A stretch of 64,000 nucleotides of DNA from Clavaria fumosa (Eukaryota; Basidiomycota; Agaricomycetes; Agaricales; Clavariaceae), in assembly GCA_951802425.1 (NCBI GenBank), contig OX637805.1:1178001-1242000 (forward strand), written 5' to 3'. Position numbers and translations under genes: made by a program. The notes under the pieces were generated by a model, which was not told the origin of the DNA, did not search any database, and saw nothing but the letters and a program-made list of their open reading frames with translations. This document shows, in pieces, positions 28,031 through 63,261 of the stretch. Position 1 is the stretch's first letter. Each line of letters begins with the position of its first letter.

Positions 28031-28114
28031 AAAATGTATAGAAGTCATGCCCAAGGATGGCCTTGTGGGATTGGATCTTTCCTAGCAGGAAATGGATCCA
28101 CTCACAATGGTCAC
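28031..28114 (-). mobile_element. Element K, left fragment (protease end)
   Basis: On the minus strand this short stretch reads on from the protease of element K (56703-56911): the reading ..ELLVRIGDHCEWIHFLLG.. spans the junction once F and one copy of the CAATC duplication are removed, and it is followed by KAILGHD. This matches the protease tail of element D. K is truncated near 28031; no RT is left. Confidence 0.85.
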
Positions 28115-28119
28115 CAATC

Positions 28120-29439
28120 TGTCAGGACCCATCCATTTTTCTTCAACCTAACAACTCTATCACCACTCATGGACCTCCCAACATTCCCCTACCACCTCGC
28201 GAACCCCCCTACACTCTTCCGAAACCCGCTACCAACTTCCGAACACCTCTTGGGCCTCCATCATCTCCTCACGACACTCGCGACCATACTGCCATACTCG
28301 CATCACCTCCCACCACCTCACCTTATGCATACCCACCGCCGAACCCACTATTAGATGCTCAACACGCTCTTACACGACTTCTGCAGTGGCACGTGACTTG
28401 CCGCACGGCACACCGGCACTACTTGCGTTACTCGCATTACCAGCATTACTCATGTGACACACCGCCCAAGGACTGCCCAAGGTCACCTGCCTCACCAGCG
28501 CTGTCCACGTGACTGCTTGCCTGACCTCGCAACCTTAACGATGAAACGCGCCACTGGCGGTCAAGCTGTGTATCCTTTCAAATTATGTTCTCCCTTCTTC
28601 TTCTCAGTCATCTATAACTGCATTAGCCTTGGACCAAGCACCTCTGCTCAGTCGTAGTTACACATATGCTTATTTAGTTAGGTTGCGACCCATGACCGGT
28701 CATGTCCGCGACCTTACCTATGCTTAGTTTACCCCTTGCGACCTTAGTAGAACACGTGCACGGTCACTCTACGACTAGTTATACCCTGTACTAGTCACCT
28801 GGCACTTTCTGTACTTTCCCTTTCTTGTCATACTCTCTGTACATACATATATATAAGTCTCGCATGTACTTACTGTACTCCAGACTTGATATTGATGCAT
28901 TATTGGTTTAAGCTTGAGGCCCGACACCTTCTGAGCTTCGAACCAAGTGCGATTGATAGTGCTTGTCTCACTTGGTGACCAGATCACACCAAGACCCACT
29001 CTGCTTTTCTTCTACTTCATTCTTGGCACTTGTGCGACTCGCACCACCTAAATATTCTCTCCTATTCATCTTGGTATTGATCTTTGGAACCCAACAGGTT
29101 CTCTTATCAATCGGCAAAGTCATCACCTTCAGCCGACCCATTCTTGACATCGTCGCGACCTCACGCGACTCCTCTCTATCGTCTATTTCTCCCATTTTGT
29201 CTGTTTCTCTCTCATGCTTCGTTGATCAACATCACGACCTCCTCAGCAACCTCCTCACTTGCCTTTTCTCTTTTATGCTCTGTCTTCCGATGTCGCGACC
29301 TTCCTAACGTATCAATGACCTTCTGGGACTGAGTATTTTCGACTGTACTCGACAGTTGATTGGTTTTAGCGAGTTTGCAAGACCAGTCACCAATGAGTTG
29401 ATATTTGGTATTACTTGCGAGATGGGACAGGCCCTAACA
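28120..29439 (+). repeat. F 5' LTR
   Basis: 1320 bp, TG...CA. A TATA-like stretch (ATACATATATATAAGTCTCG) lies near 28842-28861, and pyrimidine-rich sequence with repeated CGCGACCT motifs fills the downstream half. Near-identical to the LTR at 55377 (1321 bp) and related to those at 49122 and 60258. Confidence 0.95.
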
Positions 29440-29493
29440 TAATATCAAGTCTCCCCCTTGCCCCACCACTCAACACCCGGATAGCACCCTATT

Positions 29494-29850
29494 ATGTCTT
29501 CCAGTCATACTCCTCCCCAACCAACCACTCATCACTTCCAGACATGCACAGGTAGCCGCGCGATCACTCCAATGATTTTGGAGACTACTCGCGAGCCGCC
29601 TACCACTGTTCAAGAGCGACCCGCGTCCATCGTTCAATCACAGCCTGAAGAATCTGCCCAAATCGCACCTAGTCACGCCTCGTCCCCGCGTGAAGAGGCC
29701 GAGTCCCTTGTGGAGCAGCTCGGCTACCTGCGCTTCGACTGCCCTCACCACCGCACCTACCAAATCCTTAACAATACTCGCCGCCAATATGAAACCGGAA
29801 CTCTCAATGAAGAACTAGCATATCTCATTGAGACGATGAATCTCTATGAG
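29494..29850 (+). pseudogene. F gag, N-terminal part (cut by element E)
   Basis: Opens MSSSHTPPQPTTHHF about 55 bp after the 5' LTR and includes LVEQLGYLRFDCPHHRTYQI. It breaks at MNLYE where E begins; the reading frame resumes at 46358 (ALV*LTDGF) on the other side of E. Confidence 0.85.
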
Positions 29851-32796
29851 TGTCAACAACAGTCGAATTGACTCTCGGCTGTTTGAGGAACTCGGGTGAG
29901 GGTCAGTCGAACGAGAGCAAGAATGTCGCGGCGACATCACGTGACCCTCAAAAGTCGTGGACACATGAGCTGTCACATGATCAGTATGTCACGAGAATTC
30001 ACGTGACCACCACCGACAGTACGGCCCAAATATGTGATGGCACATCAAGCAGGATGCCATCACCCTGTCAATGGGCTGACACCTGACATCGCTGTTATGG
30101 ATCTGGTACTGGGTGCAGTCAGAAATGAGTCACTGAGAGTCATAATGACTCAGACAGGTCCTCAATTCCTCATGCAGTTGGTCTACAGGATTAGTAGATC
30201 ATCCAGTTCCATACCTTCCTGCTAACAGTATTGGAACCAACACTGCTAGCAAGGCATTGCTTTGGGCAGATATTATTATTATTAGTAACCTAAGTCACAA
30301 CATCCCATGGGCTTAGCCATTGACCCCCATAGTCTGCCTCAACCTGGTATCACTCCACAGGCTGACACTATGGCTCAATGACTGACCACTCCATAGGTAT
30401 TGTACACTTAAGCCAAATCAACATAGATAGGTCAAAAATCGAATGGTGAATAACTAGCTAACCAGTGAAGGGAGAATTAAGCTAAAGAGTTCATGAGACT
30501 CTCCTGGCTTTGTAGACCATTCTAGCTCTATAAACCTTCTCTCAATTCTCAATACTTGGCTAGTTATTCACTACTTACTCTGATGAATACATTGATACAT
30601 TGTACAGTAGAGTACCTTGTACCCTATACCAAAATATTCATATCTCGTTCAATACTTACCACGCCGAGGGGAGCCGGCACAGGGCGGCTCGTCCGAAGTC
30701 TGGGTACCTTTGGGTACCCAGATCATTTGACTAGACTAAGTCCTTAGTCGGTAGATACTACATTTAGCTTAACTAGACCCTGTCCTTAGTTTAGCTAAAT
30801 ATGTCCTTAGCTCCATGGGGAGCTAGACTCAGACTTAGTCCTCTTAGAGGATAGTGTAATCGATGTATGGGTAGGTAATGATGCCTAGAACGCGAGGTTC
30901 TGTCGGCTACTTATACTCAAATTTGCATATCTACTACATTTGGAAAGATTCAACATAGCTCCTTAACTAGTAATTCTAACATACCGTTTAAGGACTCTAA
31001 ATTAAGGAAAATTCACTGGCTTTACATATCAGGCAAAATCATAATTATATCTCATGTCTTCATTGAGATATTCCTTCTCGAAGGTTCTACATATAATCAA
31101 AATGAGTCATGATGACTCATTTCTTGGGTTCCGGTCATCGGGGATTGTGGGAAGGACCCCACGATTACCCCCGATCGCTTCTACGACGTTCCGCGACTTT
31201 CCGCAACTTTCTGCGACGTTCCTGGCCTTGATCGCGTCATTATCTCATCTATACTTCCTCTGTTTCCTCTTATCTCCCCCAGACTAGTCATAATTAAGCG
31301 TACTAACCCTATTTAGCATGTGCTTCAGCTGTATTCTATGCCAAATACATGCTAGTAACACCCTAGTACAAAGGAAGACAAGGGGAGGGCTGAGGGACTG
31401 CGCACAAAGGTTGCGAGTGCACAGTCTGCTTGTGAGGATGACTAGTCCATATCTGGAAGAGCGGCAGCATCGGCCATCACTGCTGATCGCTGCCCTCACC
31501 ACCGTGAGAACTGGGCCGAACTGTTGGTCCTCGATCACTCAATCGAGGTCCAATCATGATCGGGACAATGCCAGAGTGGTGCCAAACTCGCACCAGCGAG
31601 TTCGCAACCCTGTAGCTCAGCCGCAAGTGCTCCACGTCTCTTGTAAACTCGCGGGTATGACCTTACAGACCTTCCCGACATTCCTGTCTGTTCAGACCTT
31701 CCATTTAAAACCTCCCTTTAGCGCTATTTTAGTAATACTAGAGTATGGCCTAAACAGCAGTAGAACCAGCCTGAGCGAGTGAACAACGGTTACTTCCTTT
31801 TGCTTTTATGCATATAGGGGTAAACGAGCAGTGGGAATTCAATGGTAAAAACCGTTTGTTTGTGCGGTTCTTCGTCCCTGCTGTAGAACCATTTCTTTCC
31901 GTCCTAGTACCACTTTCCATAGCTTATGCCATACTGGGAGTAAGTTTACATGGGTGAGTAGTACAGTATGGGTAAAGGACCTAGAAAGAGCATAGGAATG
32001 TATTGAAGAGACACATAACTGCCTGGATCATCTGTTCAAGGGGCTAAGTACTACAGGTACTCAAGTACCCTAACAATCGCCCATCAAGCGACCATCCCTA
32101 ACACAACCTTGTTCTCTCCTGCGCCCCACCTCTACCGCTATCCCGTCCCCTTGGTGTCCCCATCTCCTTCCCACGATGGCTTCCTGTTCCCCTGGTGCCC
32201 TTATACTGCTATCCCGTTCCCCCACCGACTGACGCTTCCCTTCTTGGGATCATGACGACTTCGCAATCGTTGCCCGGATACTTTCATTTCCTCCCTACCA
32301 TCGCTCCCATTGTATGTCTTCTCTAACTACCTTGTACTAATATCGTTCCTATGGTCTTGGACTCCAGTATATATATGAGTAGACACTTAGCATGTATTCC
32401 CTAGACTTTGATATTCTCCAGAAATCGCCTCTTTCTACCTCCTTGTTGAGCCTTTACATCAGCTATCCATGTGACCCTCGCGATCTTGCTGCGACCTCAC
32501 TGCGACCTTTGAGCTCCAGATTTAGGATCGACCGTGACAAAGAAGAATATGTGATAGAGAGTAACAACCTAAGGAGGGGTTGTTACTTGCATGGCTACTT
32601 TATATACGTACAAAGGTATGAGTCATGGTGAGTCACAATAAGAGAGAACCGACACGTGTGGACAGCAAGGCGCAGCATGAGTCATAGTGATAGGATAGAA
32701 GGGGGGAGAGCATGTGGCATGTGATAGGTGAGGGGGAAGGGCGTATGCATGGTGTGAAGAGTGGAAAAAGGGGGGTGATGTGGTGAAAATCTAACA
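29851..32796 (-). repeat. E 3' LTR, split by insert X
   Basis: The parts 29851-29923 and 32545-32796 together match the E 5' LTR at 46028-46352. The join is seamless once X and one AAGAA duplication are removed. It contains an inverted pair GTAACAACC...GGTTGTTAC (32560-32586) that could form a hairpin. Confidence 0.88.
29924..32539. mobile_element. Insert X: 2.6-kb non-coding element in the E LTR
   Basis: Begins TGTCGCGGCG and ends ACCGTGACA, with a perfect 5-bp duplication AAGAA (29919-29923 and 32540-32544); the empty site is seen in the other E LTR at 46095-46105. No ORF with recognisable content. The last 200 bp (TATATATATGAG near 32365, then CGCGACCT-like motifs) look like an LTR 3' half, so X may be a very large solo LTR or a non-coding LTR element. 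The TAGACT/AGTCCTTAG-rich stretch at 30720-30850 is locally palindromic. Confidence 0.8.
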
Positions 32797-32834
32797 TAAT
32801 CCCCTCCCAGTGGTCCGGCGTCTCGACAGGCCCG

Positions 32835-33602
32835 CTAGGCCTCCAGGCTCTCTTGGTGTTTGCGCGGTTGCGGTTCGGTTGGTGGCTCGAGTTCGGTGGG
32901 GGGGTTGATACTCGTGTCACGTGTATTGGGCACAAGAGGGTGTTCGTAGGCATCGGTGGGGACAATCCATGGGGCCATCACGTCGGTGGTGATGGGTATG
33001 ACCCAGGGAGGGCCTGTGCGGCTATGGTGTATGGCCCACTCTTCTTGCAAGATGGGTTCGGGTGGTAATGGAATCTCGAATCGTAATCTTGTGCTCTGGG
33101 AATTGAGCCATATTTCAACGAGGACAGGGGAAGCGCAGAGGATGCGCCGTTGTTGTTCGAACTGCAGTCCCCGCAGTTCGGTCCACATTGCGCGGCTGAA
33201 ACTCACACTGAGCTGCTCAGCCATCCTACGGAGCCAGACGTCGTCTTTGGGCTCCCGAAGTTCTCTGTTTTGTCAAAATTGCGGCATCCGCATAGGGGGG
33301 TCGTCAGTCATAAGCGGTGGGGGGTCCAATCCCAGCACTTGTCATGCATGGGGGATTCGTACTGCATCCAAGATGTGGTGCATACGGGCAGTTGTGCCGG
33401 GGGACGATGGTGGGCCTTTGAGTCTCGGTGGCGTGCCTCGTGGGTCAGGCCTGGGTTGCAGGTCAAGTGCGGGTCGTTGGCAGGTGGTCTCGGCAGGTGG
33501 CGGGTGCGGTAGGCGGTTCGGCCATCCCGCTGCTCGGCAGGCATAGTAGGGCGGTCCTGGGGTCCCGCAGTGTGGGGTCTGAGGAGTATGGTCGGGTGGC
33601 AT
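32835..33602 (-). pseudogene. E ORF3, third ORF downstream of pol
   Basis: On the sense strand of E, after the chromodomain stop. Starts MPPDHTPQTPHCGTPG; continues with PPSSPGTTARMHHILDAVRI, PPLMTDDPP, EPKDDVWLRRMAEQLSVSF and LRGLQFEQQRRILCASPVL; ends EPQPRKHQESLEA. Two in-frame TGA codons interrupt about 255 codons. Element H (63511-64000, plus) carries the same reading at the same place, so this is a conserved gene of the family and not a chance frame. No membrane span or signal peptide, so not an envelope protein. Function unknown. Confidence 0.75.
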
Positions 33603-34876
33603 GGTAGAGAGAAGGGAGGTGTTTACAAAAGAGGGGGAAAGGCATTCGGTGGGTGAAGTCGTTTGCAGTTTTTCTTTTTAAGTGCTCAACCCTGAATGTG
33701 TGATCATTCAGGCAAAAGACACCGTGAGAGAATGTGCCACCTCAGGGTGTTTTCGGTGAAAGTCCACAACGGCCTCAGCTGCGTCCTTCAGGTTTGTCCT
33801 CAGTTCCCATGTGTTGTCTTCATGGGGGTAGCTGGCCCATTTCACTAGGTATTGCAGTTTGCGCCTGTGCCTCCGGCTCTTTAGAACCTCTTCTACCTCA
33901 TGCTGTAGGTGGTCATCGATTAACTTGGGCAGTGGGCGCTCGTCTGGAGTTTGGTTAGGGAACTTTCCTTCCTTATACAGCGTGAGTAGTGCCTCGTTGA
34001 ATACCGGGTGGATCTTCCATGTGGCCAGTAGGTTGAGTCGGTAGGCGGCCGGTCCTACTTTCTCCATTACCACGAAGGGACCAACTCTTCTATCAGTGAG
34101 TTTCTCTGATGGTCGCTTGGTGTTCAGGTTAGTAGCATCCAACCAGACCAAGTTTCCCTTTTTGTAGTTGAGTGTTTTTTTGTTTTTATGTTTATCATAG
34201 GTGGTTTTCATGTATTGTGCGGCTTTCTCCATGGCCTTTTTGGCATTCTCTCTGGCTTTCTGTAATTTTGTGGCGAAGTCAGAGGCTTCCGGGGTGTGCG
34301 GCACATCAGGCAGGCTAATGTCACCCATACAAGGGTGAAAGCCATAGTTTAGAAAGAAAGGGCTGTACTTGGTGGCAGAGTGTTGTCGGTTGTTCAGGGC
34401 GAATTCCGTGGTGGGCAACCAGTCTGACCAATCGTCTTGCATGAAGTCGACATATGAGCACAGGTATATCTCTATTTCCTGGTTCATTCTTTCTGTTTGT
34501 CTGTCAGTTTGCGGGTGGTAGGCTGTACTCGGGTTTCCTTTTATGCCAATGATCTTATAGAACTCCTCCATGAAGTTCGAGACGAATTGGGATCCTCGGT
34601 CGCTTATCACCTTGCAGGGTACTCCATGGCTGTGAAGTACTCGGTCCCGTAGGATTTTTGCTGCCCCCAGTGCCGTGAGCTTCATGTCCGTGGCTTCCAG
34701 TAGGGTCATCTTTGTGAGTTTGTCGCATATCACAAGGATGGCATTATGTGTAGTGGATTTTGATAGCAGCCCGATAAGGTCCCAAGTGATGGTGTGCCAC
34801 GGGCAGGGCGGTATTGCATGCAGATGTAGGGGTGCGTGTCGCTTCATCCAGTCAGGTTTTGTCCTTTGACATTTCT

Positions 34877-35411
34877 TGTCAGGATCCATTACGTAAGCCA
34901 CCCTCACTGAACTCCATAACGCGCGAGGAACCCATCACCAGGAATCCGAACAGATTCCGCAGCGAGGAATCCGAATGGATTCTGTGGCCAGTGATAAGCG
35001 CCCATCATGTGCCCCACACCCACATTCCTCACGACTTCCCACGCTTTGCAATTCGTGATGGAGGCGGATCAGCAATGATCACTCTGACAGCTCCCATCAA
35101 ACAATCCACTCTAATCGGGACTAATCCAGACCCCTCCACAGTCAGCCAAGCCCATGCTAAGCATTTCTCTTGTCATTCTCCCCTTATCCGTACCTCACTG
35201 CTACCTTCCCTAATTGGCATCCCCTTTTCCCTATACTGCCTCCCCTATCCCGTGCGACTCAGTGCGTGTAGCCTCGTTCCCCATTTTATGACTCGTCCCC
35301 TACACAGCCCCTTCCCCTAGTATATATAGTGCTCTTGTAATGAGTGTAGTTCCCCACGTTGAAATCGAGTTACTTTCCCCCTTCCGCTATTGCTAGGGAC
35401 CTGGACTGACA
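34877..35411 (+). repeat. D 5' LTR
   Basis: 535 bp, TGTCAGGATCC...GGACTGACA, with a TATA-like box (CTAGTATATATAGTGCTC) at 35317-35334. It is 26 bp longer than the 3' copy, mainly because of a segment at about 34950-34980 flanked by short repeats of GGAATCCGAA. Confidence 0.95.
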
Positions 35412-35500
35412 CAATTTCAACGTCCACCCCTTGCTACCCTGACCCTGTCAACCCCCAGTCAGCCTAGCTTTCTCCTTTCTCCCTACCCCCTGCCCGTCGT

Positions 35501-36022
35501 GTGCAACAGAATGACGAGAGAACTATCCTGGTGTATCCGACACATAACAAAGACATAACAGATGAGTGGCTCACCACGGTCCTAGATTTTGGTGAGGACG
35601 AATATTGGGCCCGATACTTTGACACCCACGTAAGAACAGAATTCTACCTGGACACCCCGATGGAATCCGACGTATCTGAGACGGAAACTGTGGTACTGAG
35701 ACCGTGAGAGCTGCACCCTTTCGAACTGTGGATTATTGAGGAGAGATGACTTGCTCCTTATTTCGCAAGGTTGTATGCACAGGAACAAAGCCGACGAGAA
35801 GAGAGACTGAGAGAGGCACTGAGAGCCGCCCTACCGGATTCCGCGACCTCAGGCACGAGATCGCCTGCACACAGCACCATCGACATTAACCTTGACAACC
35901 TCGAGGACTACGTAAACAGCGACAACGATGAGTTGACGAACGAACCCACGCACGTTTCCGTGGCGATCCAGACAGAGCTTAGCCTCATCAGAATTGAACA
36001 ACTCATCGTCCACGAGTACTGA
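35501..36022 (+). pseudogene. D ORF1 (gag-leader ORF)
   Basis: One frame from MQQNDERTILVYPTH through EYWARYFDTHVRTEFYLD, with TGA at 35705 and 35747, to SVAIQTELSLIRIEQLIVHEY and TAG-free end at 36022. E has an equivalent ORF (45390-45776, ending SVVTQTDEIPP...CIDIFQDPP), so a separate N-terminal ORF is typical of this lineage. Function unknown, probably part of Gag. It overlaps the following gag frame by about 29 nt. Confidence 0.7.
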
Positions 36023-37322
36023 CCCCTCACCTTCATCTGTTGTCCCATCAACCCTGTCCCCCCCAGCACCACCAGTTCATACCGAGCCCTCTGTAGACTT
36101 CGCGAGTTTAGACAAGCACCTAGCCCGGCAAGCACCGTCGCCACCACCACCACCACAGTCACCTGCGACTCCAGAGCCGGAACCGCGACCCCAACCCACG
36201 AGTCCATTGCCGCCAGAACCCTCGCCACCGCCCTTGCCCATACCCAAAATGGCAGACACCATCCCCGCAGCCCCAATGCCAAGGCTGGACCTAGCCGTTC
36301 CATCCTTTGATGGAAACAAGAAGAATTTCCGGACCTTCCTTAGGTCCCTCCGACTACAGTTCCTGGCCAACCAGGGGCTCTATACCAATGACCTGAACAA
36401 GATTCTGTTTGCGCTGAGTAAGATTACCAGAGAGGGGTTCGCAGCGGAATGGGCGAACATGCAGAGTGACGAGATTTTGAATGCTGGAGTGGCCGGGACT
36501 TGGGAAGATTTTGTTGTGGGTCTGCGAAGGGCCTTCGACAACCCAAACATTACCGCGACTGCCCTGAACGACATAGCAAAGTTGAAACAGGGAGTGCTGG
36601 AAGCCACGGAATTCTTCGCACTATTCGAGATGCTGATGCGCAAGGCAGAGTTGGACCCGGTCGACGACTCGGACGTACTAATCCACTGGCTGGAAACAAA
36701 CCTCAACCGGAGGCTGACTACGCAGGTCTACAACGTCAACCCCATGCCAGTCACCTATGCCCAGTGGAAGCAACTGGTCGAAACATTGGACGCCCAACAA
36801 AGGAGGCTCGATGCCATCATACACGAGCAAAACGCCAACTGCCCCGCCCCTACCCAGTTCCAGCAGTTGCGACCACTCCCCACACCCCCCCGCTACCCGA
36901 ATCCGAATCCCCCGCAACCCGCGCCTCGCTTCCCCTCCGCCCCGCAGCAGCAGCAACGCGCTCCTGCTCCACAGATCATGCCCCATCCTGCTGGTGCCGG
37001 TGACCGGATGATCGTAGACCAGACGTGAGCTCCTGCAGTCGAGCGTCGATGCTTCCGTTGTGGCCAGGTAGGACACCTCGCCCGCAACTGCCACCTCCCG
37101 GACATGCGACCCTATGTCCTGAGGCCACAAGTTCGCGCGATGGTCCCTGGCTCAGTGGAAGTGGAAGAGTACGAGAATGAGCTGGCTCTACTCCACAACA
37201 GGCTCACGATATACGAGAGAGAAAGACAGATGGTTGGCACCCCACAGGCCCAACAACAACAACAACAACAACTTCTATCGGCTCCTACCCAGGAGCAGGG
37301 TTTTGGAGACGAGGCGCAGTAA
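35994..37322 (+). pseudogene. D gag (capsid, zinc knuckle)
   Basis: Structural protein of the particle. Pro-rich N-terminus; capsid region from PRLDLAVPSFDGNKKNFRTF to LIHWLETNLNRRLTTQVYN. After a Pro/Gln-rich stretch a TGA at 37026 interrupts the frame just before the CCHC knuckle CFRCGQVGHLARNC; the same frame runs on to 37322, with a Gln run near the end. The frame has no ATG at its beginning (opens at TTG), consistent with expression by frameshifting from ORF1 or with decay. Confidence 0.85.
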
Positions 37323-37402
37323 GTCCGAACTGGCGTCTCTGTAATAGTACGAGTCCTGTCCCCGCCCCCACCCCTGTAACCATAGCAAGTATACCCCAAT
37401 AT

Positions 37403-40400: not shown

Positions 40401-40841
40401 GTGAGTATGGGAAGGGAGATTTGGTGTGGCTCGACACACGAAACTTGAAAATGGACTGCCCAAATAAGAAACTTGACAATAAACGGGCTGGACCTTTTGC
40501 CATTATTGAGAAAGTAGGACCAGCAGGATATTGCCTCAAGCTACCTCCTGCTTGGTGCATCCACAATGTATTCAATGAACTTCTCCTAACCCTGTTCGTC
40601 CCCCCTTTCTTTCACCTCCCAGGCCCGACCCCCCCCACCTCCTCCAACCATCGATGATGATCATTTGGAATACGAAGTTGAAGAAATCCTGGATGTAAAG
40701 AAAATAGGAAGGGGAGTGAAATACCTGGTGAAGTGGTTAGGCTACCCCGTCGAAGAAAACACCTGGGAACCCCGCCAAAACCTTACCAACACCGCGATTC
40801 TCCTCCGCGACTTCTTCCTCAAACACCCAGACAAGGCATGA
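37403..40841 (+). pseudogene. D pol polyprotein
   Basis: A single frame to about 40600 interrupted only by TGA at 38225, 39341, 39506 and 40322. Protease VKVLIDSGCTNCFMD; RT YASPFFFK then KLRPIIDYSHLNSF, with the catalytic box YIND in place of YxDD; RNase H WKVETDASNLAMGGVLSQQQ and IWTDHANLQYF; integrase GHPRIKKMKAAMLKAYWWP, CEGCQRTKPDRTK, SWDIVGPLPQS, SDRGPQFVSRFM, AFHPQTDGQTEWVNQEIETY (D, D and E all present). After a frameshift in a C-rich run near 40610-40640 comes the chromodomain [20 protein letters not shown]. Chromodomains of this type usually direct integration to heterochromatin. Confidence 0.93.
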
Positions 40842-40879
40842 CTGGCCGGTTGAGACGCCCAGCCTTGAGGAGGGGGCCA

Positions 40880-41388
40880 TGTCAGGATCCATTACATAAG
40901 CCACCCTCACTGAACTCCATAATGCGTGAGGAACCTGTCACCAGGAATCCGAACGGATTGTGTGGCCAGTGATAAGCGCCCATCACGTGCCCCACACCCA
41001 CGTTCCTTGCGACTTCCCATGCTTTGCAATTCGTGATGGAGGCGGATCAGCAATGATCACTCTGACGGCTCCCATCAAACAATCCACTCTAATCGGGACT
41101 AATCCAGACCCCTCCACGGTCAGCCAAGCCCATGCTAAGCATTTCTCTTGTCATTCTCCCCTTATCCGTACCTCGCGCTACCTTCCCTAATTGGCATCCC
41201 CTTTTCCCTATACTGCCTCCCCTATCCCGTGCAACTCAGTGCGCGTAGCCTCGTTCCCCATTTTATGACTCGTCCCCTACACAGCCCCTTCCCCTAGTAT
41301 ATATAGTGCTCATGTAATGAGTGTAGTTCCCCAAGTTGAAATCGAGTTACTTTCCCCCTTCCGCTTTTGCTAGGGACCTGGACTGACA
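40880..41388 (+). repeat. D 3' LTR
   Basis: 509 bp, near-identical to the 5' LTR apart from a 24-26 bp deletion and scattered substitutions, several at CpG. Ends CTGGACTGACA directly before the TTTCT duplication. Confidence 0.95.
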
Positions 41389-43992: not shown

Positions 43993-43997
43993 ATAGC

Positions 43998-45900: not shown

Positions 45901-46027
45901 GATCATTCATACGCTGTCCAAAAGCGTGCCAGGGTGTCTTCTCCGAATACGCAAGCCTTGCTTCGGCTCGGGCAGGGGTGTGGGTGCCTAGGTCCGTGAG
46001 GAGGTAGGCAGGGGAGAGGTTGTTACT

Positions 46028-47822: not shown

Positions 47823-48117
47823 GAGTAGCAGGATGAGCCATGTTTACGCTTGAGGAAGGAGAGGAAGACTTCCAGGAAGTGTATGAAGTCGAGGAAGAAG
47901 TGGAAGAAGATGTCGATGATCCACATGAAGAGTTAAACAAGGAAGCAACTCAGGAGCTTCCAGGGGAACTCTGAGTCATGATGAACCAACCCCCATACTC
48001 GCATGGGCCGCGACTAGTTCCTCCTCTCCTCAGTTTCTTCGCAACTTTTCTAATACTCCTATTGCCTCCCAGTCCTCCCAATCCTTCCTCATAAAGACAC
48101 AAATCCCAGATTTCGGC

Positions 48118-53087: not shown

Positions 53088-53180
53088 ATTTCCTCACCTC
53101 CCTTTCGTTTTTCTTCACTTTCTCACTTCAGACTTCACAGCAATTTATACATGATAATCAAAAAAACAAAGAAAAAATTA

Positions 53181-55259
53181 TTATCTACTGGTCGCGAGCT
53201 TTTTCTTTCCTTTTTGTGACCCTTCTGCCCCTTCCTCACCTTCCATACTCGTGACTTTTTCTTCTCCTTCCTTCTCCTCCTCTCCAGCCTCGGGAGCCTT
53301 CAACTCCAAACCCCAATGGTCCACCCTTGGAATATCTAACAACTCCCTCCTCACGCAATGCTGTTCCTGCTCTGCCCATTTCTCTACCCATGATGGGAGT
53401 TCCTTTGGTGACTTCATCAAGAGGTCTTCATAGGCAAAGAAGACCATCTCGAGGCCTCGCCATCCTCGAAATCGAGCTTCACGGAGTTCGCTGACCATTG
53501 ACACGCATTGGCCGCACAATTCTAGAGACAAATCGTCAGCCCATCATTAAGAATACAAAACTTGCGACCACTTACCTTGCGACTGCTCCCTCGACATCGA
53601 CAACTCCTCCTCCATCTTCCCCACAGTTGCAATTAATCCTATAAAACGCGGAATTAGTTCATTTCATACCCACGAAACTTGGACTTACCCTCCCTCTCCT
53701 TCTTCATCTCCTTCAACTTGCAACGCACTTCTCTCAACTTAGCCTCCTGGTCTGAAAGAGGAAAGAAATTAGTTTACAATGCGGTAAAACCAGGCTATTA
53801 CTTACCTTCCCACTCCTCATGGAGAGCCTCTAATTCGCTTTCCGCCCCCTCAGCCCGTGCCGTTAGTTCCATGACTTCCGCATCCACGATTTTGGACGTG
53901 GGCACCTTCGACGATGTCCCCTGCGTCCTCTCCACCTCTTTGCCCTTCCCTACAGATTCGCAAGTTCAGTAAAAATCACTGAACACTGTGAAAAACTTAC
54001 CTTGTACACTTCTCTGTGCCTCCTCCAGCTCGCGCCTTACCATCGCCAACTCCTTTTCCAACTCCACCTCCCTATCGGATCTCTTCACCCATAACGTCTT
54101 CTTCGAGGGTTCCGCAACCTGTTGTTTCAACGTCATGAGTTCCCTCTCCATCTCCTCCCTTGTTCCGGACTCTTGTGACAAGGTCGTCACCTTCATCCGC
54201 ACCGTCATGGCGACCTGCTTCAATCTCTTGACCTCCTCCTCACTCTTCTTCAGCCTCCCTTCCAACCAGCGCTCCTTCGTCGCCCTTACGTCCAACCGCC
54301 CTTGAAGGATCTTGACTTCTTCCTCACAGTCCATCACCTTCTGAAGCAACTGCCCCTTCTCTCCCGGGGTTTCCAGAATCCGCACCTTCTCCCCATGAAC
54401 CTTCACGACGTTTGTCAGACACACCGGCGCATCTTCCTCCACCTCTGTCTCTGTTTCCAGTACATCTGCAACTCGCCTCCTCGACGTTGAAGGACCTGGT
54501 GTCAGCGACCGCGACCTTACCCTCACTCGTTTTCCACGCCCTGCTTGCGTCGGGGTCTCCGGAACTGGTAGGGTGGGAAGCTTTCCCCCCACTCGGCTCG
54601 CAACCTTGGGCGTTGCCGTGCCCACCGTTTCCAATCCTTCCGCACGCCTCAACGCTTCGTCGACACGCACATCGTCCCACCCGAACGCGTTCTTCACCCG
54701 CCATCGTCAAAACTCTTGGACCCACAAGCACTTCCCGTGGTCCTCCATGCACTGACAACATTTACTGGCAGCGCAGCGCTCGCACTGCCGGCCCTTTGCA
54801 ATGCAATTGTTGCAATCCTATAATTCAACGATCAGAAAGGAGGAGTAAAATGAGAAATTTTGTTACGCACCTCTCGCACCATCTCGTTCCACTCCTTATT
54901 CTCCTTCGCTGACCCGATTTTCTTCCATGCTTTCAGGAATTCTGTGGGCGACGGGTCAGCCCCGCCCGCGACTTCTCCCCCCAGTTTGCTGGGGCCCGCG
55001 ACATTTTCTTCCACCTGACTTGGGCCCGCGACGTTGCTCCTCGTTTCGTTAGAGCCCACAACCTTGCCCTTCCTCTTTTCATGCCCCGTGGTTTCTTCGC
55101 AAAGACACGCGCATCGCTCTTGCTCGGCCTTTTGGCGGGCCAACATCTCGGCCAGCGCCTCTTTGTTGCAGCTAGCCTCACCCCTTTCAAACTCCTCGTA
55201 TTCACGCATTTTGTGTTCGAGTTGGGTTCCAGTGCATTTGAGGATGTTGGAGGAGACAA
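53181..55259 (-). pseudogene. Antisense spliced gene inside F (Cys-rich, coiled coil)
   Basis: Lies between the F chromodomain and the F 3' LTR, on the opposite strand. First exon about 54870-55259: KCTGTQLEHKMREYEEFERG, ARQKAEQERCACLCEETTGH, FLKAWKKIGSAKENKEWNEM. After an intron, a Cys-rich block DCNNCIAKGRQCERC...KCCQCMEDHGKC (about 54730-54820), then WDDVRVDEALRRAEGLETVG, a Ser/Arg-Pro stretch (KRVRVRSRSLTPGPSTSRRR), a long coiled coil to about 54000, several short exons and a last exon 53181-53531 (ARFRGWRGLEMVFFAYEDLL ... KGKKKLATSR). The expected ATG at 55259 reads ATT, and a TGA breaks the frame after WVQEF. A second copy exists in G2. Function unknown; the Cys spacing suggests zinc binding. 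Confidence 0.7.
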
Positions 55260-55376
55260 TGGTGGTTGGACTTAGAGAAAAATTTCGGGTGTCGTGACCT
55301 GATCAATGAACATTGCACTGACTAACAGTCACATGACCTCCACTCTTGCAGGGCTCAAGGCTTGAAGGGGGGGTAA

Positions 55377-56697
55377 TGTCAGGACCCATCCATTTTTCTT
55401 CAACCTAACAACTCTATCACCACTCATGGACCTCCCAACATTCCCCTACCACCTCATGAACCCCCCTACACTCTTCCAAAACCCGCTACCAACTTCCGAA
55501 CACCTCTCGGGCCTCCATCATCTCCTCATGACACTCGCGACCATACTGCCATACTTGCGTCACCTCCCGCCACCTCACCTTATGCATACCCACTGCCGAA
55601 CCCACTATTCGATGCTCAACATGCTCTTACATGACTTCCGCAGCGGCACGTGACTTGCCGCATGGCACACCAGCACTACTCGCATTACCAGTGTTACTCA
55701 CATGACACACTGCCCAAGGACTGCCCAAGGTCACCTGCCTCACCAGCACCATCCACGTGACCACTCGCCTGACCTCGTGACCTTAACGATGAAACGTGCC
55801 ACCAGCGGTCAAGCTGTGTATCCTTTCAAATTATGTTCTCCCTTCTTCTTCTCAGTTGTCTATAACTGCGTTAGCCTTGGACCAAGCACCTCTGCTCAGT
55901 CGTAGTTACACATATGCTTATTTAGTTAGGTTGCGACCCATGACCGGTCATGTCCACGACCTTACCTATGCTCCGTTTACCCATCGCAACCTTAGTACAA
56001 CATGCGCACAGTCACTCTACGACTAGTTATACCCCGTACTACTATAGTCTTGTCACCTGGCACTTTCTGTACTTTCCCTTTCTTGTCATACTCTCTGTAT
56101 GTATGTATATATAAGTCTCACATGTACTTACTGTACTCCAGACTTGATATTGACACATTATTGGTTTAAGCTTGAGGCCCAATGCCTTCTGAGCTTCGAA
56201 CCAAGTGCGATTGATAGTGCTTGTCTCACTTGGTGACCAGATCACACCAAGACCCACTCTGCTTTTCTTCTACTTCGTTCTCGGCACTCGTGCGACTCGC
56301 GCCACCTGAATATTCTCTCCTATTCGTCTTGGTATTGATCTTTGGAACCCAACAGGTTCTCTTATCGATCGGCAAAGTCATCACCTTCAGCCAACCCATT
56401 CTCGACATTGTCGCGACCTCACGCAACTCCTCTCTATCGTCTATTTCTCCCATTTTGTCTGTTTCTCTCTCACGCTTCGTTGATCAACATCGCGACCTCC
56501 TCAGCGACCTCCTCACTTGCCTTTTCTCTTTTACGCTCTGTCTTCCGACATCGCGACCTTCCTAATGTATCGACAACCTTCCAGGACCGAGTATTTTCGA
56601 CTGTACTCGACAGTTGATTGGTTTTAGCAAGTTTGCAAGACCAGTCACCAACGAGTCAATATTTGGTATTACTTGCGAGACAGGACAGGCCCTAACA
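55377..56697 (+). repeat. F 3' LTR
   Basis: 1321 bp, preceded by the polypurine tract GCTTGAAGGGGGGGTAA (55360-55376) and followed by the CAATC duplication. Confidence 0.95.
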
Positions 56698-57991
56698 CAA
56701 TCCTCACCAGCAGCTCAATTCCAAACCAGATTTTACTCTCTCTGTTCTGTGACCCATCCACATTGTACATTGTGATTGGGTTCTGCAGGGGAGATGGCTC
56801 TAGTCCTACTCTTTTTTCCCACTCCAAGTCCATGAAACAGTTGGTGCATCCTGAGTTGACAAGGGCCTTTGTCATAGCCAACTTGCCAGTGCTGAGAGCC
56901 TCCAAGTGCACCTGGATGGCTAGCTCTCATGGCACATGTTTTCCCACTTCTGGCCACACTGTGGTTAGGTGCTCTGCTGGTCTCACTTCTTCCTTCTCCT
57001 CAGCCCTGGTTTGGGTATGTCTCTGCTGCAAGATAGTATACTTGTGGTGGGCACAAGGACAGAATTGGGGCTGGGACAACTTTTCTCCCCAGCAGGAGCC
57101 CTTCTCTCTCTCTTGTATGGCCCCAGTTGGGCTCAGAGCAGTGCAATCCCCTTCTTATACTCCTCTGCCATTTGGGGGGCACTTGACACTGCACAGGTTT
57201 GGGCCCTTGGGACCTGCAGATGCATATTGGGCAGGGGACAGAAATGGACAGCATGGCCAGTCTGGTGGCATTGGAAACAACATCTCTCAGCAGCAGGGCC
57301 CATCCTTGGCCCATGGCCACATCCAGAGTATGCTGCAAAGGGGTCACAAAAAGGTTGTGGAAGGTCACAGTAGGTTGCAGCAGATTGCAGGTATCATTCT
57401 GCATCAAGTTGCCTATGCTGGGCATCAAGTCTTTCTGCCAGCACTTTCCATCCTCCATATGTCTCTGGCATTGGGGAGACACCATAGATCTTCCCACTAA
57501 CCTCCTACTCAGGTTCAACTCCAGCCAATGGACTAGGATTCCTGAGTCCTTCTCATCACACATCTCTGCCTGTTGGAACAGTGTCTCAAACTTCACAAAG
57601 AACTCCAGTGCTGTCATGGCACCCTGTTTCAACCCTGCAATGTCTGCAAGGGCTGTTGCACAGTCATTTGGGTCATCAAATGCCTGCTTCATTTCCTCCA
57701 CAAACTCTGCCCAGGTTCTGGCCTTGCCATTACCCAGGATCTCTTCTGCCTTCATATTTGCCCATTCTGTGGCAAATCCTTCTCCAGTAATTTTTCTCAG
57801 AGCTGTTGGGGCCTGTCCTGTCTTGTTGTTAAGATCTGATTCTTTGCTCCAAGGAGGGAGGAGGGGTAGTATAGAGGAGACCAAAGAAGGAGGGGTGTTA
57901 GGGCCTGTCCTGTCTCATAAGTAATGCTGAACGTCGACTTGTTGGTGACCAATCCTGGAAACTCACTAAGACCAATCAACTGTTGAGCACA
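56698..57991 (-). mobile_element. Element K, right part: LTR end, gag, protease start
   Basis: Minus-strand gypsy remnant related to D. From right to left: an F-type LTR end in inverse orientation (57896-57991, TGTTAGGGCCTGTCCTGTCT), gag 57000-57884 with RKITGEGFATEWANMKAEEI, AFDDPNDCATALADIAGLKQ and VHWLELNLSRRL, then protease 56703-56911 with ALVNSGCTNCFMDLEW (Asn in place of the usual Asp before SGC). It stops at the F insertion and continues at 28114. The oldest layer of the nest. Confidence 0.88.
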
Positions 57992-59049
57992 CAGTGGTCC
58001 CTGTTAATTTAGTATACTAAATATCAGTTAATGTACCAAAATGCTTTGAACTCAAGCCAGCTACAGCTGATCCTACTAATGTCAGCAAATGCTGTAAAGG
58101 TAGTATACTTACATCCAGCTACTGCTGACTATACTAGTATACTTACATCCAGCTACTGCTGACTATACTAGTATAGCATGACATCACGCTTAATTAACTT
58201 GAGCTGTGAACTTAGTGCAGTAGTTGCTATCAAATAGTTAACTAGACATAATAGCTGTGTATTTATTGACATGAAATAAATAAGCCCAAATACAGACAAA
58301 TATTTATCAAATGCCTCTATATTGAAATTCAGCTTATATAAACATCAAAATATGGCCTCAAATTAAAACATTATATAAAATTGAATGAACTTCCTGAAGC
58401 TGTGGCAGTACATTGCCATGTTTATATTATCATAATTACAAGTGCTGTGCTCAAATTAATGATTCAATTCACAAGTACTACAACTGAGTTAATTAAACCT
58501 GCTTGTAACTACTGCACTCACAAATAGTAGACTCAAGTTGTGCATAGTGTGCAGAAATTACTGTGTAAAAGTGCACTATGGACCAAGTTAACTGGCAATA
58601 TTTTATGACTGCTATTACTGTTGAATAGTATACTACATCAATCAGAAGTTGCTGGATCAAGTTAACTGGAATATTTTTACCACTGCTTTTGCTGTAGAAT
58701 AGTATACTATACTAACCAGCAGCTACTGGACCAAGTTAACTGGTGTTATTTTATGACTGCTATTACTGTTGAATAGTATACTACAACAATCAGCAGCTGC
58801 TGGATCAAGTTAACTGGAAATACCCTGTAGCTGTTATTACTGTAGATTAGTATACTATGTTCACCAGCAGCTGCTGGATTAAGTTGACTTCTACTGTACT
58901 GTAATAGTATAGTCAGCATTAGCTGGACATAAGTATACTGCCTTCACAGCATTTGCTGACATTAGTAGGATCAGCTGTAGCTGGCTTGAGTTCAAAGAAT
59001 TTTGGTACATTAACTGATATTTAGTATACTAAACTAGCTGGGACTATTG
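57992..59049. mobile_element. Foldback / MITE-like element, 1058 bp
   Basis: Long imperfect inverted repeats: the first about 150 bp (CAGTGGTCCC, TTTAGTATACTAAATATCAG, CAAGCCAGCTACAGCTGATC) recur inverted in the last about 150 bp. A possible 3-bp duplication ACA flanks it (57989-57991, 59050-59052). The centre (about 58580-58890) has four tandem units of about 74 bp sharing AAGTTAACTGG and AATAGTATACTA. AT-rich, no ORF; a non-autonomous DNA element of unknown superfamily. Confidence 0.8.
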
Positions 59050-59085
59050 ACAAAATTTAAATCAACATGGTAACATAAAAAGCAA

Positions 59086-60142
59086 TTACTTACTCCAGTA
59101 ATCCCTCTGGAGGATTTCAAAATTCCTTTTGAATTCCTTGAATGCATCCCTTACCGCAGCCAACTCCACCTCCAGCTCCACCTCCCTCGAGGACTTTGGC
59201 ACCCACACTATCTTCTGCATGGGCTCCACGACTTGCTGTCGGAGCATCGCAAGCTCCCTCTCGAGATCGGCCTTTGGGACCAAAGTCCCTGCGACCTTCT
59301 CCTGTTCCTCCACCAACTCCCTCGACAATGCTGGTTTCGCAACTCGCCTCCTTGTCGACGGACCAGGCATCGGCGACCACAACCTTGTCCTCACCCGTTT
59401 TCTGCATCCTGCTTGTGTCGGGGTCCTCAGAATCGGTAGGGTGGGAAGCCTTCCCCCTACTCGGCTCGCGACCTTGGGCATCGCTGTGCCCATCGCTTCC
59501 GATCCTTCGGCGCACTTCAACGCCTCATCGACCTGCGCATCATCCCACCCGTATTCGTTTTTGATGCGCCATTGACGAGCATTTCCTGTGATCCTCCACA
59601 CACTGATGACATTTGCCAGCAGTGCTGCACTCGCACTGCCGGCCCTTTGCGACACAGTTGTCGCAATCCTGTGATTCAGCAATTAGAAACAAGATGGAGG
59701 AATGAGAAATAATTGCTATGCACCTCTCGCTCCATCCCATTCCACTCTTTATTTTCCTTTGCTGATCCAATTTCTTCCATGCTTTTAAAAATTCCATGGG
59801 CGACAGATCTGTTACACCTGCAGAGTTACCCCCCATCTCGCTGGAGTTCGCGATGCTACCCGCCACCTCGTTCGTAACCGCAATGTCGCCCATCGACCCG
59901 CTTGGGCCTGCAACGTCGTCCCTCGCCTTGCTGGGACCCGCGACCTTACTCTTCTTCCCCTCGTGCTTCGCAACTTCCTTGTGAAGGCACGCACAATGCG
60001 CCTGTTCCTCCTTTTGCCGAGTTAGTAACTGGGCCAGGGCTTCTTTGTCGCAGCCAGGCTTGGCCCTTTCATATTCTTTGTACATGCATGTCTTGTGCTC
60101 AAGCTGAGTTTTGGTGTGTTTGAGGACATTGGAAGAGACCAT
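59086..60142 (-). pseudogene. Antisense spliced gene, second copy (in G2)
   Basis: Same gene as in F, here with its ATG at 60142 (MVSSNVLKHTKTQLEHK). First exon to about 59724 with CDKEALAQLLTRQKEEQAHC, Ala/Gly/Pro-rich repeats and SPMEFLKAWKK; one frameshift near 59775. After the intron, DCDNCVAKGRQCECSTAGKC and CHQCVEDHRKC; then YGWDDAQVDEALKCAEGSEA, Pro/Arg-rich sequence, coiled coil, and a stop at 59086 that truncates the protein relative to the F copy, where the foldback element adjoins. Confidence 0.65.
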
Positions 60143-61399
60143 GGTGGTTGGACTCAGAAAATTTTTTGGGTGTTGTGACCTGATCAACAAACATCGCACT
60201 GACTAATCATCATGTGACTTCCACTCTCGCAGGGCTCAAGGCTTGAAGGGGGGGTAATGTCAGGACCCATTCATTTTTCTCTTGCCCAAACCAACTTTAC
60301 CGGCACCTACAAGCCTCCCGACTTCCCTCTACAACCTCGCGAGCTCCTCTACACACTTCCGGGACCCGCCATCCCCTTCCAGAAGCCTCCCCGACCTCTC
60401 CCACATTCACACAACACTCGCAACCATCATACTATACTCGTGTCACTTCCTGCCATCTCACTCTATGTGTGTCTACCACCCAAACCTGCCAAATCGAAGC
60501 ACGACACGCGGTTATGCAATCTTCTTCAGCCAGCACATGACTTGCCACATGGCACCACCAATGCCACTAGCATTACCCATGTTACCAGCATTACCCATGT
60601 GACTTCCCACCCAAGCGTCACCTGCATCACTACCACCATCCATGTGATTGCATGCATGGACCTCGTGACCTTAATGATGAAACACACCACTGGTGGCCAG
60701 TTGAGCACTACTTCAAATTATGCTTCCTTTCTTCTTCCTTGTCATTTATAACTATGAAACTTATGACCAAAGCATCTGTTCATGGTTATAGTTACCCATA
60801 TGATTATTTAACTAAGTCGTGACCCATGACTGGTCAGGTTCGCGACCTTACTTATGTTTCCCTTACCCCTCGCGACCTTAGTAGAACATGTCCATAGTCA
60901 CCTTATGACTGACCATACCCCGTACTACTATAGTTCTGTCACTTGGCGACCTCTGTACTTTTCCTCTTCTGTTATACTCTCTGTATGTACGTATATAAAG
61001 CCCCACATGTACTTATGGTACTCCAGACTTGATATTGACACACTTTGGTTTAAGCTTGAGGCTATTATGCCCTTTGAGCTTGGAACCACCGTGATTGATA
61101 GGTCTTGTCTCACTTGGTGACCTCAACAACACCAAGACACACTCTGCTTTATTCTAACTCATTCTCCATGCTCGTATAAACTCACACACCTAAGTATTCT
61201 CTTTCACTCATCTTGGTACTGATCCTTTGAACCCTATAGGTTCTCTCGTCAGTTGGCAAAGTCATTGCCTTCACTGACACACTTCTCAGCACTGTCGCGA
61301 CTACTTGCGACTCTCTCAATATCGTCTATTTCTCCCTCCTCGTCTATTTCTTCCTTCACGCTTCATCGGTCAACTTCACGACCTTCTCAGCATTACCTA

Positions 61400-61611
61400 C
61401 AGTGACTCACAAAACTGTTCCAACGTTTGGAACATTTCAATTAATTAGAGTGTAACTCATGAAGAAATTTAGATAAAATTATGAAAATATTTATCCAAAT
61501 GGGACACTATATAGGCCATAATCGTACCAATTTTCAAAATGCTTCAGTAACCCTTCACTGACATATGTGCATTTCTCTTAAGGGGTGACATTGGAACAGT
61601 TTTGTTGCAGG
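61400..61611 (+). repeat. Left terminal inverted repeat of the Tc1/mariner element
   Basis: 212 bp, from CAGTGACTCAC to CAGTTTTGTTGCAGG, matching the right end inverted with a modest number of mismatches. The inner end repeats the GTTCCAA motif also found close to the tip, as in elements with paired transposase-binding sites. Confidence 0.92.
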
Positions 61612-61758
61612 TGAAACTAACATGATAAAATAGACAGAATCATATGACTTTGTTGATTGTTTGGGCATATTTATGTTGTTTCAACAGTGTCACATGATCA
61701 GACCATGCTGGTGTATATATACAAGGCTTCTGGTACAGTTGACACCCCACACTTGGTC

Positions 61759-62775
61759 ATGCACCCACTTACACCATCTGACCAAAACCAAATACTTTCT
61801 ATGCTGGATGCTGGCCACTCTACTAGGTCTATAGCATCCTCCACTGGCCATGGCCTTTCCAGCATCTCTAGGCTTCACTCTAAACATCGTCCTCACCTCT
61901 CTAAGTCTCTTGGAGGTCGCCCTGCTAAGCTTTCCAGCACCAATATTCGCCATGCTGTCCATCTTATTGGCTCTGGGAGGGCTAGTACTGCTGTGGATGT
62001 GGCCAAAACCCTTACCAACATCACCAACCAGCCTCTCTCTGCCCAGACTGTGTGTCGTAGCCTGAAGAAAGCAGGTATGAAGGCTGTGGTGAAGAAGGAT
62101 AAGCCCCTTCTCTCCAAGAGGCACAGAAAGGAGAGGTTAGATTTTGCCTTGGCACACCAGTACTGGACTTTGGAGGACTGGAAGAGAGTTGTATGGTCTG
62201 ATGAGACCAAAATAAATTGTCTGGGCTCAGATGGGAAGAAGTGGGCTTGGAAAAGGGCTGGGGAGGGCTTGAGTGATAGGCTTATTGAGGGAACACTCAA
62301 GTTTGGTGGAGGGTCTGTGATGGTGTGGGGGTGCATGCTGTGGGAGGGAGTTGGATTTGCATGCAGGATTGATGGGAGGATGGATGGGGAGCTTTACTGC
62401 AAGATTTTGGAAGAAGACCTCCAAGCCAGCATCAGGTATTATGACAAATTGCCAGCTGACATCATCTTTCAGCAGGATAATGATCCTAAGCACAAATGCA
62501 AAAAGGCACAAACATGGATCCAGGAGAATGGCCTGAAGGTTCTTGCATGGCCAGCACAGTCTCCTGACCTTAATCCAATTGAACATTTGTGGGGTCACCT
62601 GAAGAGAAAGCTGGGAGAGTATGAGAGGGCACCTGGGGGGATGTTGGAGTTGTGGGAGAGGGTAGAGGAGGAGTGGAACAAGATTGACACAGTAGAGTGT
62701 CAAAGACTCATTGAGAGCATGCCTAGGAGGATTCAGGCAGTGCTCAAAGCAAAAGGGGGCTACACTAAATACTAG
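61759..62775 (+). CDS. Tc1/mariner transposase, DD34E
   Basis: 338 aa from MHPLTPSDQNQILSMLDAG at 61759; an upstream in-frame ATG at 61657 would add 34 residues without domain content. The N-terminus has two helix-turn-helix segments (HSTRSIASSTGHGLSSISRL and NQPLSAQTVCRSLKKAGMK). The catalytic domain has VVWSDETKIN (first Asp), GGGSVMVWGCMLW, FQQDNDPKHKCKKAQTWI (second Asp) and SPDLNPIEHLWGHLK (Glu). The spacing from the second Asp to Glu is exactly 34 residues. Length and all catalytic residues are as in active Tc1 members. It cuts and pastes the element by binding the 212-bp ends. Confidence 0.95.
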   Translation: MHPLTPSDQNQILSMLDAGHSTRSIASSTGHGLSSISRLHSKHRPHLSKSLGGRPAKLSSTNIRHAVHLIGSGRASTAVDVAKTLTNITNQPLSAQTVCRSLKKAGMKAVVKKDKPLLSKRHRKERLDFALAHQYWTLEDWKRVVWSDETKINCLGSDGKKWAWKRAGEGLSDRLIEGTLKFGGGSVMVWGCMLWEGVGFACRIDGRMDGELYCKILEEDLQASIRYYDKLPADIIFQQDNDPKHKCKKAQTWIQENGLKVLAWPAQSPDLNPIEHLWGHLKRKLGEYERAPGGMLELWERVEEEWNKIDTVECQRLIESMPRRIQAVLKAKGGYTKY

Positions 62776-62802
62776 ATTTTATGCTTTGGTAGCCAAAGTC
62801 CA

Positions 62803-63014
62803 CCTGCAACAAAACTGTTCCAATGATACCCCTGAAGAAAAATGTTCATATGTCAGGCAAACATGGATGAGGTATTTTGAAAATTGGTATTATTATGGCC
62901 TATATAGTGTCCCATTTTGATAAATATTTTGATAATTTTATCTAAATTTCTTCATGAGCTACACTCTAATTAATTGAAAAGTTCCAAACATTGGAACGGT
63001 TTTGTGAGTCACTG
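62803..63014 (-). repeat. Right terminal inverted repeat of the Tc1/mariner element
   Basis: 212-bp inverted partner of 61400-61611, beginning right after the transposase stop and ending at the TA duplication. Confidence 0.92.
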
Positions 63015-63261
63015 TATTTCTCTCAACTCGTCCTTTTCCCTCTCTATACTTTGTCTACCAACCTTGCGACCTTCTCAGTGACACTTCCCTCCTCTTTACT
63101 TGTCTCTCCTCATTCTCACATCTTCTCAGATGCCCTCGCGACCTTCTGGGACCGAGCATTATCGACTGTGCTCAACAGTTGATTGGTCTTAGTGAGTTTC
63201 CAGAACTGGTCACCAACAAGTCAACTTTCGGCATTACTTATGAGATGGGACAGGCCCTAAC

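Follow-up and report, generated by a model that had tools for sequence, protein, structure and literature searches.

Evidence for a five-deep nest of retrotransposon insertions in the agaricomycete Clavaria fumosa

How was a locus assembled in which one long terminal repeat (LTR) retrotransposon interrupts another, and can the order of events still be read from it? We analysed a window of 64,000 nt from Clavaria fumosa (C12:1178001-1242000, contig OX637805.1), taken from an assembly of 48.76 Mb in 17 contigs that is near chromosome scale. The boundaries of the elements, their target duplications, the empty sites in relatives and the LTR pairs could be shown directly, and the locus is almost certainly a retrotransposon nest formed by successive independent insertions. 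We designate the nested elements K, F, E, D, X, Y, S and b; the longest chain of insertions, K > F > E > X > Y, was found to be five deep. The first-pass annotation had proposed a nest of at least four layers and the order K, F, E, then D, X and the solo LTRs. Both proposals proved correct but one layer short, as Y lies inside X. The parts of the nest are as follows:

28043-28114, minus strand: left remnant of K, protease region (empty site in L081)
28115-28119, no strand: target duplication of F, left copy, CAATC
28120-29439, plus strand: 5' LTR of F (a), 93.4% identical to 55377-56697
29440-29850, plus strand: F internal region up to the E insertion, ending in ATGAG
29851-29923, minus strand: 3' LTR of E left of X, ending in AAGAA
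29924-30092, plus strand: X, solo LTR, left part, ending in ATCGC
30093-32075, plus strand: Y, solo LTR inside X (ATCGC/ATCGC), with copies at 97% over this stretch only
32076-32539, plus strand: X, solo LTR, right part, beginning with ATCGC, with genome matches at 88-94%
32540-32796, minus strand: 3' LTR of E right of X, beginning with AAGAA
32797-34876, minus strand: E internal region left of D, chromodomain and part of the integrase (Pfam), ending in TTTCT
34877-41388, plus strand: D, a Ty3/Gypsy element (LTRs 34877-35411 and 40880-41388), TTTCT on both sides
41389-43687, minus strand: E internal region between D and S, RNase H and reverse transcriptase (Pfam), TTTCT at left and ATAGC at right
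43688-43992, minus strand (TATA on the minus strand): S, solo LTR in E, ATAGC on both sides
43993-46027, minus strand: E internal region right of S, beginning with ATAGC
46028-46352, minus strand: 5' LTR of E, 96.9% identical to its other LTR
46353-49121, plus strand: F internal region from ACGAG to GAGAC, up to b
49122-50585, plus strand: b, solo LTR inside the F reverse transcriptase, GAGAC on both sides (empty site in L080)
50586-55376, plus strand: F internal region from GAGAC, with the rest of the reverse transcriptase, RNase H, integrase, chromodomain (52722-53087) and antisense frames (Pfam)
55377-56697, plus strand: 3' LTR of F (c)
56698-56702, no strand: target duplication of F, right copy, CAATC
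56703-57803, minus strand: right remnant of K, gag and start of the protease (Retrotrans_gag in the open reading frame (ORF) 57000-57914), with relatives at 79-89%

A script was used to read both ends of every proposed element together with the adjoining sequence. All seven LTR-type insertions (F, E, X, Y, D, S and b) were found to start with TG, end with CA and carry a 5-bp duplication, while random pairs of a TG start and a CA end within the nest shared a flanking 5-mer in 243 of 200,000 draws. These joins suggest the following course, in which the splits claimed by the first-pass annotation all reappear. A Ty3/Gypsy element, today fragment K, would have taken in F (28120-56697, CAATC/CAATC). 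F would then have taken in E near the start of its gag (29851-46352, ATGAG/ACGAG) and, separately, b within its reverse transcriptase (RT) (49122-50585, GAGAC/GAGAC). E in turn would have received D in its integrase region (34877-41388, TTTCT/TTTCT), S (43688-43992, ATAGC/ATAGC) and, in its 3' LTR on the left, X (29924-32539, AAGAA/AAGAA), and X would have received Y (ATCGC). The claim of X in E therefore stood as to place and duplication but failed as to a single element, since X holds Y. The 5-bp staggered cuts were presumably made by Ty3-type integrases. The order of insertion is K; F; E and b; D, S and X; Y; nesting leaves free the mutual order of D, S and X and that of b versus E.

The sites themselves were examined in relatives of the same genome by searching the two flanks of each insertion separately. 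For each of the seven LTR-type insertions, at least one such relative was found in which the site was empty and the outer element contiguous. The flanks met with a 5-bp overlap in two of two loci both for D in E and for S in E, and in the one locus available for b in F (L080), for F in K (L081) and for Y in X. A 5-bp overlap was also present in 4 of the 28 loci for E in F, many of the 28 being without that stretch, and an overlap of 4-6 bp in 22 of the 30 loci for X in E (from 25 rows, three of them double), one of which was E's own right LTR; in some of the X-in-E rows the final flank bases (31 or fewer) were projected rather than aligned. In the loci read, the 5-mer at the empty site was identical to the duplication or differed from it by one base, with the exception of L049 (two differences; one of five X-in-E loci). 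It had also been claimed that removal of each insert restores a reading frame. This was borne out for D in E and b in F, whose flanks are in phase, and for F in K and S in E, which are in phase and open as worked out from the printed frames; E in F bore it out only by half, being in phase with a stop within a few codons.

The missed layer became apparent from genome matches to the 2616-bp stretch that the first-pass annotation had called X, which was found to be a composite of an X LTR of ~630 bp and the 1983-bp Y inside it. Positions 170-2152 of this stretch matched sixteen other copies at 97% and further copies at lower identity (best 40 of 431 candidates), and no other copy in this same set covered the outer parts in full. 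The right outer part alone matched at least 39 other places at 88-94% (best 40 of 161 candidates), and several of these relatives occurred, among the matches listed, in pairs ~5.75 kb apart. As Y and the outer parts match different genome copies, X was read as a solo LTR holding a second solo LTR, Y, and a single 2.6-kb element was rejected.

Each of X, Y, S and b has its own duplication, and most likely each arrived as a full-length insertion that was later reduced to a solo LTR by LTR-LTR recombination. The family evidence for this consists of the spacing of paired LTRs in relatives, as opposed to elements read end to end; paired relatives were found for X and S, and for Y among diverged relatives only. 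The S family was very uniform, with several copies paired 5591 bp apart (among the matches listed); of 39 other copies at 98-99% (best 40 of 1247), 38 aligned over the full 305 bp and one fell short by a single base. Solo LTR b was 84% identical to the F LTRs and 96.0% identical to L020. X, Y, S and b could instead be small nonautonomous units that are mobile in their present form, a reading we consider improbable. Their TG...CA ends and duplications would fit such units, as would the sixteen 97% copies of Y, for which no partner was present within ~12 kb among the matches listed (best 40 of 431). However, relatives of X and S are often paired at a fixed spacing (~5.75 kb and 5591 bp), diverged Y relatives are paired ~10.6 kb apart (among the matches listed), b is of the same kind as the F LTRs, and X has an LTR-like TATA and self-primer sequence, all of which argues for solo LTRs.

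The ends of ten Y copies were read. Three had their own duplications and unique flanks (C1a CCTCC, C3b GCCGG and C8 GCACC), and five shared one flank (GTACG, with one difference in two of the five), so that these five look like copies of one insertion. The common-flank copies were located near contig ends on C4, C3, C2, C11 and C1, at 19 to ~190 kb from the ends, which points to an exchange of blocks between chromosome ends. Subtelomeric targeting by Y was considered and rejected, as five of the ten copies read share the flank and likely represent one insertion copied.

If the nest was built from the outside inwards, the ages of the LTR pairs would be expected to follow, and the first-pass annotation had predicted the order K > F > E > D. 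The Kimura two-parameter distance (K2P) was 0.0701 ± 0.0078 for the F pair (86 differences in 1311; identity 93.4%), 0.0317 ± 0.0101 for the E pair (10 in 325; 96.9%) and 0.0385 ± 0.0090 for the D pair (19 in 509; 96.3%). F was more diverged than E (two-sided Fisher p = 0.017) and than D (p = 0.019), in agreement with the prediction; E and D were inseparable and nominally reversed, and the window contains no LTR pair of K. Transitions made up 82 of the 86 differences in F, 9 of 10 in E and 15 of 19 in D, of which 48, 9 and 11, respectively, stood in CpG context, and many of the differences may have been made by CpG deamination. F remained more diverged than E when CpG-context transitions were left out (p = 0.003). 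At a rate of 1.3e-8, as used for Laccaria (PMC3411680), the nominal ages would be ~2.7, 1.2 and 1.5 million years for F, E and D; since most differences are transitions and many lie in CpG context, these are unsafe as clock ages. The solo LTRs have no pair to date, and the nearest relative was taken as an upper bound on age: b (96.0%, best of 28 loci), Y (97%) and S (99%; both among the matches listed) all had relatives closer than the F LTRs are to each other (93.4%), while the nearest relative of X, at 94% among the matches listed, gave no useful bound.

A second alternative, which we regard as very improbable, is that part of the layering was copied into place as a block that was nested beforehand, by segmental duplication or gene conversion. 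Copying of blocks that contain these elements does occur in this genome, as the flank shared by five of the ten Y copies indicates, and conversion could also produce the reversal of E and D. However, in those relatives of F, E and X that were read the sites are empty and each relative has flanks of its own, and no second copy of a nested pair was present among the matches listed. Least credible of all is an assembly artefact in which mis-joined repeats only look nested: the locus does consist of families with dozens of copies, but we rejected this on the duplications and empty sites, since mis-joining should not give all seven insertions a matching 5-bp duplication, the flanks of the relatives meet with exactly the overlap of a duplication, and the assembly is near chromosome scale (17 contigs).

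Several observations weigh against a nest of successive insertions. The outer ends of K and G2 (an element to the right of the nest) have no readable join in the window; the first-pass statement that every join was resolved was thus too strong, as it fails for K at its two outer ends, for G2 at the left and for an inverted-repeat element (described below) at its flanks. The empty sites stem from relatives elsewhere in the genome and not from the same locus of another strain. The two copies of the E duplication differ by one base (ATGAG/ACGAG), and the Y copies C10 and C12 were without a duplication. The D LTRs are nominally more diverged than those of their host E (K2P 0.0385 versus 0.0317; p = 0.70), and this remained so without CpG-context transitions (8/509 in D versus 1/325 in E, p = 0.17), where in addition the excess of F over D lost significance (p = 0.13). 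That D and E are nominally reversed is unsurprising and would leave the nesting unrefuted: across fifteen species of plants, inner LTRs more diverged than the outer are reported for 1042 of 4126 nested pairs (25%) (PMC7251063).

The three full elements classify as chromodomain-bearing Ty3/Gypsy elements with the domain features of chromoviruses: F, E and D each have an LTR pair, TG...CA ends and a short target duplication, with the chromodomain (PF00385) at the integrase end. RT and RNase H lie upstream of the integrase in D and E, and RT lies upstream of the integrase in F. The minus-strand domains of E were RT (42502-43689), RNase H (41956-42501) and integrase (33708-34934); D contained gag, protease, RT, RNase H, integrase and chromodomain, with RT/RNase H at 38228-39343 followed by integrase at 39509-40324; and in F, Pfam gave RT at 50516-50791 and integrase at 51533-52721, RNase H being read in translation only. 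After the 5' LTR, 12 nt in F, 10 in D and 11 in E were complementary to the element's own LTR, the target standing 30-36 nt behind the TATA; a match as good arose in 1 (F), 2 (D) and 0 (E) of 500 shuffles. A copy of the X family had 13 nt complementary after its 5' LTR, likewise to LTR sequence 30-36 nt behind a TATA; the shuffles covered F, D and E. The signatures are located as follows:

29440-29464 in F, 35412-35436 in D, 46003-46027 in E, and in the X-family copy L082: self-priming signatures

Tf1 and Tj1 are described as self-priming LTR elements (PMC4600332), and as in these, the sequence after the 5' LTR of F, D, E and the X family is complementary to what is presumed to be the 5' end of the transcript. 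By this likeness F, D, E and the X family may start reverse transcription by Tf1-like self-priming; according to that paper the function was demonstrated for Tf1, whereas the present elements show the sequence pattern.

Beyond the F insertion, the homology to K begins at 28043-28045 (four of four loci with a match) and stops at ~57803, and K is read as a fragment. The first-pass annotation had set the left end of the nest at 28031, which did not hold, as the K homology ends at 28043 instead. The features to the right of the nest are:

57804-57991, minus strand: 92 bp after the end of the K homology, then a 96-bp LTR end (57896-57991)
57992-59049, no strand: inverted-repeat element with repeats of ~148 bp
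59050-60257, plus strand: G2 internal remnant, with antisense frames at 59086-60202
60258-63262, plus strand: G2 3' LTR, split by a mariner element, 74-76% identical to a and b
61400-63014, plus strand: Tc1/mariner element, transposase ORF 61657-62775, TA at 61398-61399 and 63015-63016
63263-64000, plus strand: H, an E-like element with its chromodomain cut by G2 (half chromodomain; L103), continuing past the window

The inverted-repeat element is nonautonomous by appearance, and no clear target duplication was seen in the sequence flanking it. It contains an inner tandem repeat of ~74 bp. Its many genome copies are 93-100% identical over most of its length, and it therefore probably moved recently. 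G2 comprises only a 3' part, its left end and target duplication being absent from the window. The insert in its LTR at 61400-63014, lying at TA as had been claimed, is a Tc1/mariner element: its transposase has DDE_3 and HTH_Tnp_Tc3_2 domains, and its inverted repeats are 89% identical over 216 bp. When TA was omitted on both sides, its flanks were matched in 22 of 30 loci (24 rows), the overlaps being scattered; when TA was kept on the left, a match across the site was found in 21 of 21 loci (L010-L030), several of these rows being repeats internal to the LTR, and the best row of five loci (L011 and L013-L016) had TA at the site. The half chromodomain of H (63263-63397) corresponds to profile positions 22-52, and the other half was not seen in the window. 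Repeats continue to the right of the window, where another G-like element with an antisense frame lies beyond H (L103). To the left of the nest, Sec2p, SIS and glutamine amidotransferase domains were found. A GlcNAc-kinase-like ORF had best protein matches of 42-47% identity over ~40% of the query, those with a name coming from Agaricomycetes; the domains and these matches indicate a basidiomycete and probably an agaricomycete. Also outside the nest, 22705-24496 contains a direct repeat of 627 bp (93%) with its copies 1165 bp apart, and a 24-bp tandem array (25344-25667) lies within the ORF 24699-26375 of the minus strand. Neither Rfam nor tRNA scanning of the window gave a match.

A further feature of F and G2 is a set of open frames on the strand opposite to the element:

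53966-55302, minus strand: F antisense frames (53966-54706 and 54832-55302), between the chromodomain and the 3' LTR
59086-60202 in G2 and 5053-5517 in L103, minus strand: antisense frames elsewhere

The first stretch of the F antisense frame had matches in eight loci and in G2 (28 loci and the G2 region were searched), with stops or frame breaks in L008, L023 and L024 and partial matches in L010 and L012. The four full-length gapless copies (F, L006, L013 and L028) had no stop in this frame, and its ratio of nonsynonymous to synonymous substitution (dN/dS) was 0.29-0.54 (six pairs). The other two frames of the antisense strand gave 0.42-1.09 and the three sense-strand frames 0.45-0.92, 0.28-0.55 and 0.83-1.31 (three pairs each), all with stops present; the signal is modest because one sense frame was equally low. 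The second stretch had two related proteins, P0102 and P0103 (1501 candidates), from JGI and ENA contigs. P0103 has 385 aa and spans both F stretches with a cysteine-rich part between them. A search with P0103 found, besides itself, P0102 only among the matches listed (7996 candidates); such searches need shared 5-residue words, and distant relatives may be missed. Comparison with PDB sequences and Pfam gave nothing convincing (best E 0.52 and 0.026), phage records gave no match, and a structure model from the single sequence (mean predicted local distance difference test score (pLDDT) 52, predicted template modelling score (pTM) 0.20) was too poor for a fold search.

In this genome, P0103 had at least 164 matches (best 107 of 374 candidates). 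We compared 106 protein places with F-type LTRs (best 40 of 786 candidates) and found 11 pairs within 2.5 kb, of which nine lay upstream of the LTR in antisense orientation (eight different LTRs, that of F included) and two were sense. Most of the 106 places were not near any of the 40 LTRs compared, and carriage of all 106 by LTR elements is therefore not established. On the twelve contigs considered, 16 of 100 protein places lay within 120 kb of a contig end, against 6.5% expected. We give an even chance to the view that these frames are a true accessory gene borne by the elements on the opposite strand, in the interval from the chromodomain to the 3' LTR. It would belong to a family for which no description was found and encode a long, largely helical protein (on a low-confidence model) with a cysteine-rich middle; it would have ~100 or more places in the genome, be carried at least partly by LTR elements, and correspond in fungi to the antisense genes of plant elements. 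In plants, LTR elements that carry an extra antisense ORF between pol and the 3' LTR are described (PMC7264820), and the extra frames of F and G2 resemble these ORFs in position and orientation; in contrast, those hosts are plants, and the words fungi and fungal are absent from the text of that paper. No antisense gene in a fungal LTR element was named in the titles or abstract beginnings of the literature searched, most subscription papers being outside its reach. In the accessible part of the Tcn1 paper, a legend marks an additional ORF of unknown function in the element map, its orientation not being readable (PMC2864245).

Nests of LTR retrotransposons in maize were reportedly described by SanMiguel and colleagues. 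In the agaricomycete Laccaria bicolor, 382 transposon nests or clusters are reported in the accessible part of PMC3411680, and the present locus resembles them as tight nesting of transposons in a fungal genome with LTR elements prominent. Those nests were described in bulk, whereas here each LTR-type join was placed at single-base precision and compared with empty sites. As in nested LTR retrotransposons of plants, nesting gives an absolute order of insertion with which the LTR clock can disagree (PMC7251063, accessible text); that work concerned many pairs in plant hosts, in contrast to one fungal locus.

A transposon nest is a well-known kind of finding and the knowledge of nests is unchanged by this one, but the case is unusually clear, with four solo LTRs present within one locus. 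The nest gives an order of events that is independent of any clock, and can be used to check LTR dating in a fungus; here, the LTR clock recovered F before E and D and did not separate E from D. If real, the antisense gene would be more widely useful, as a retrotransposon accessory protein with almost no relatives found.

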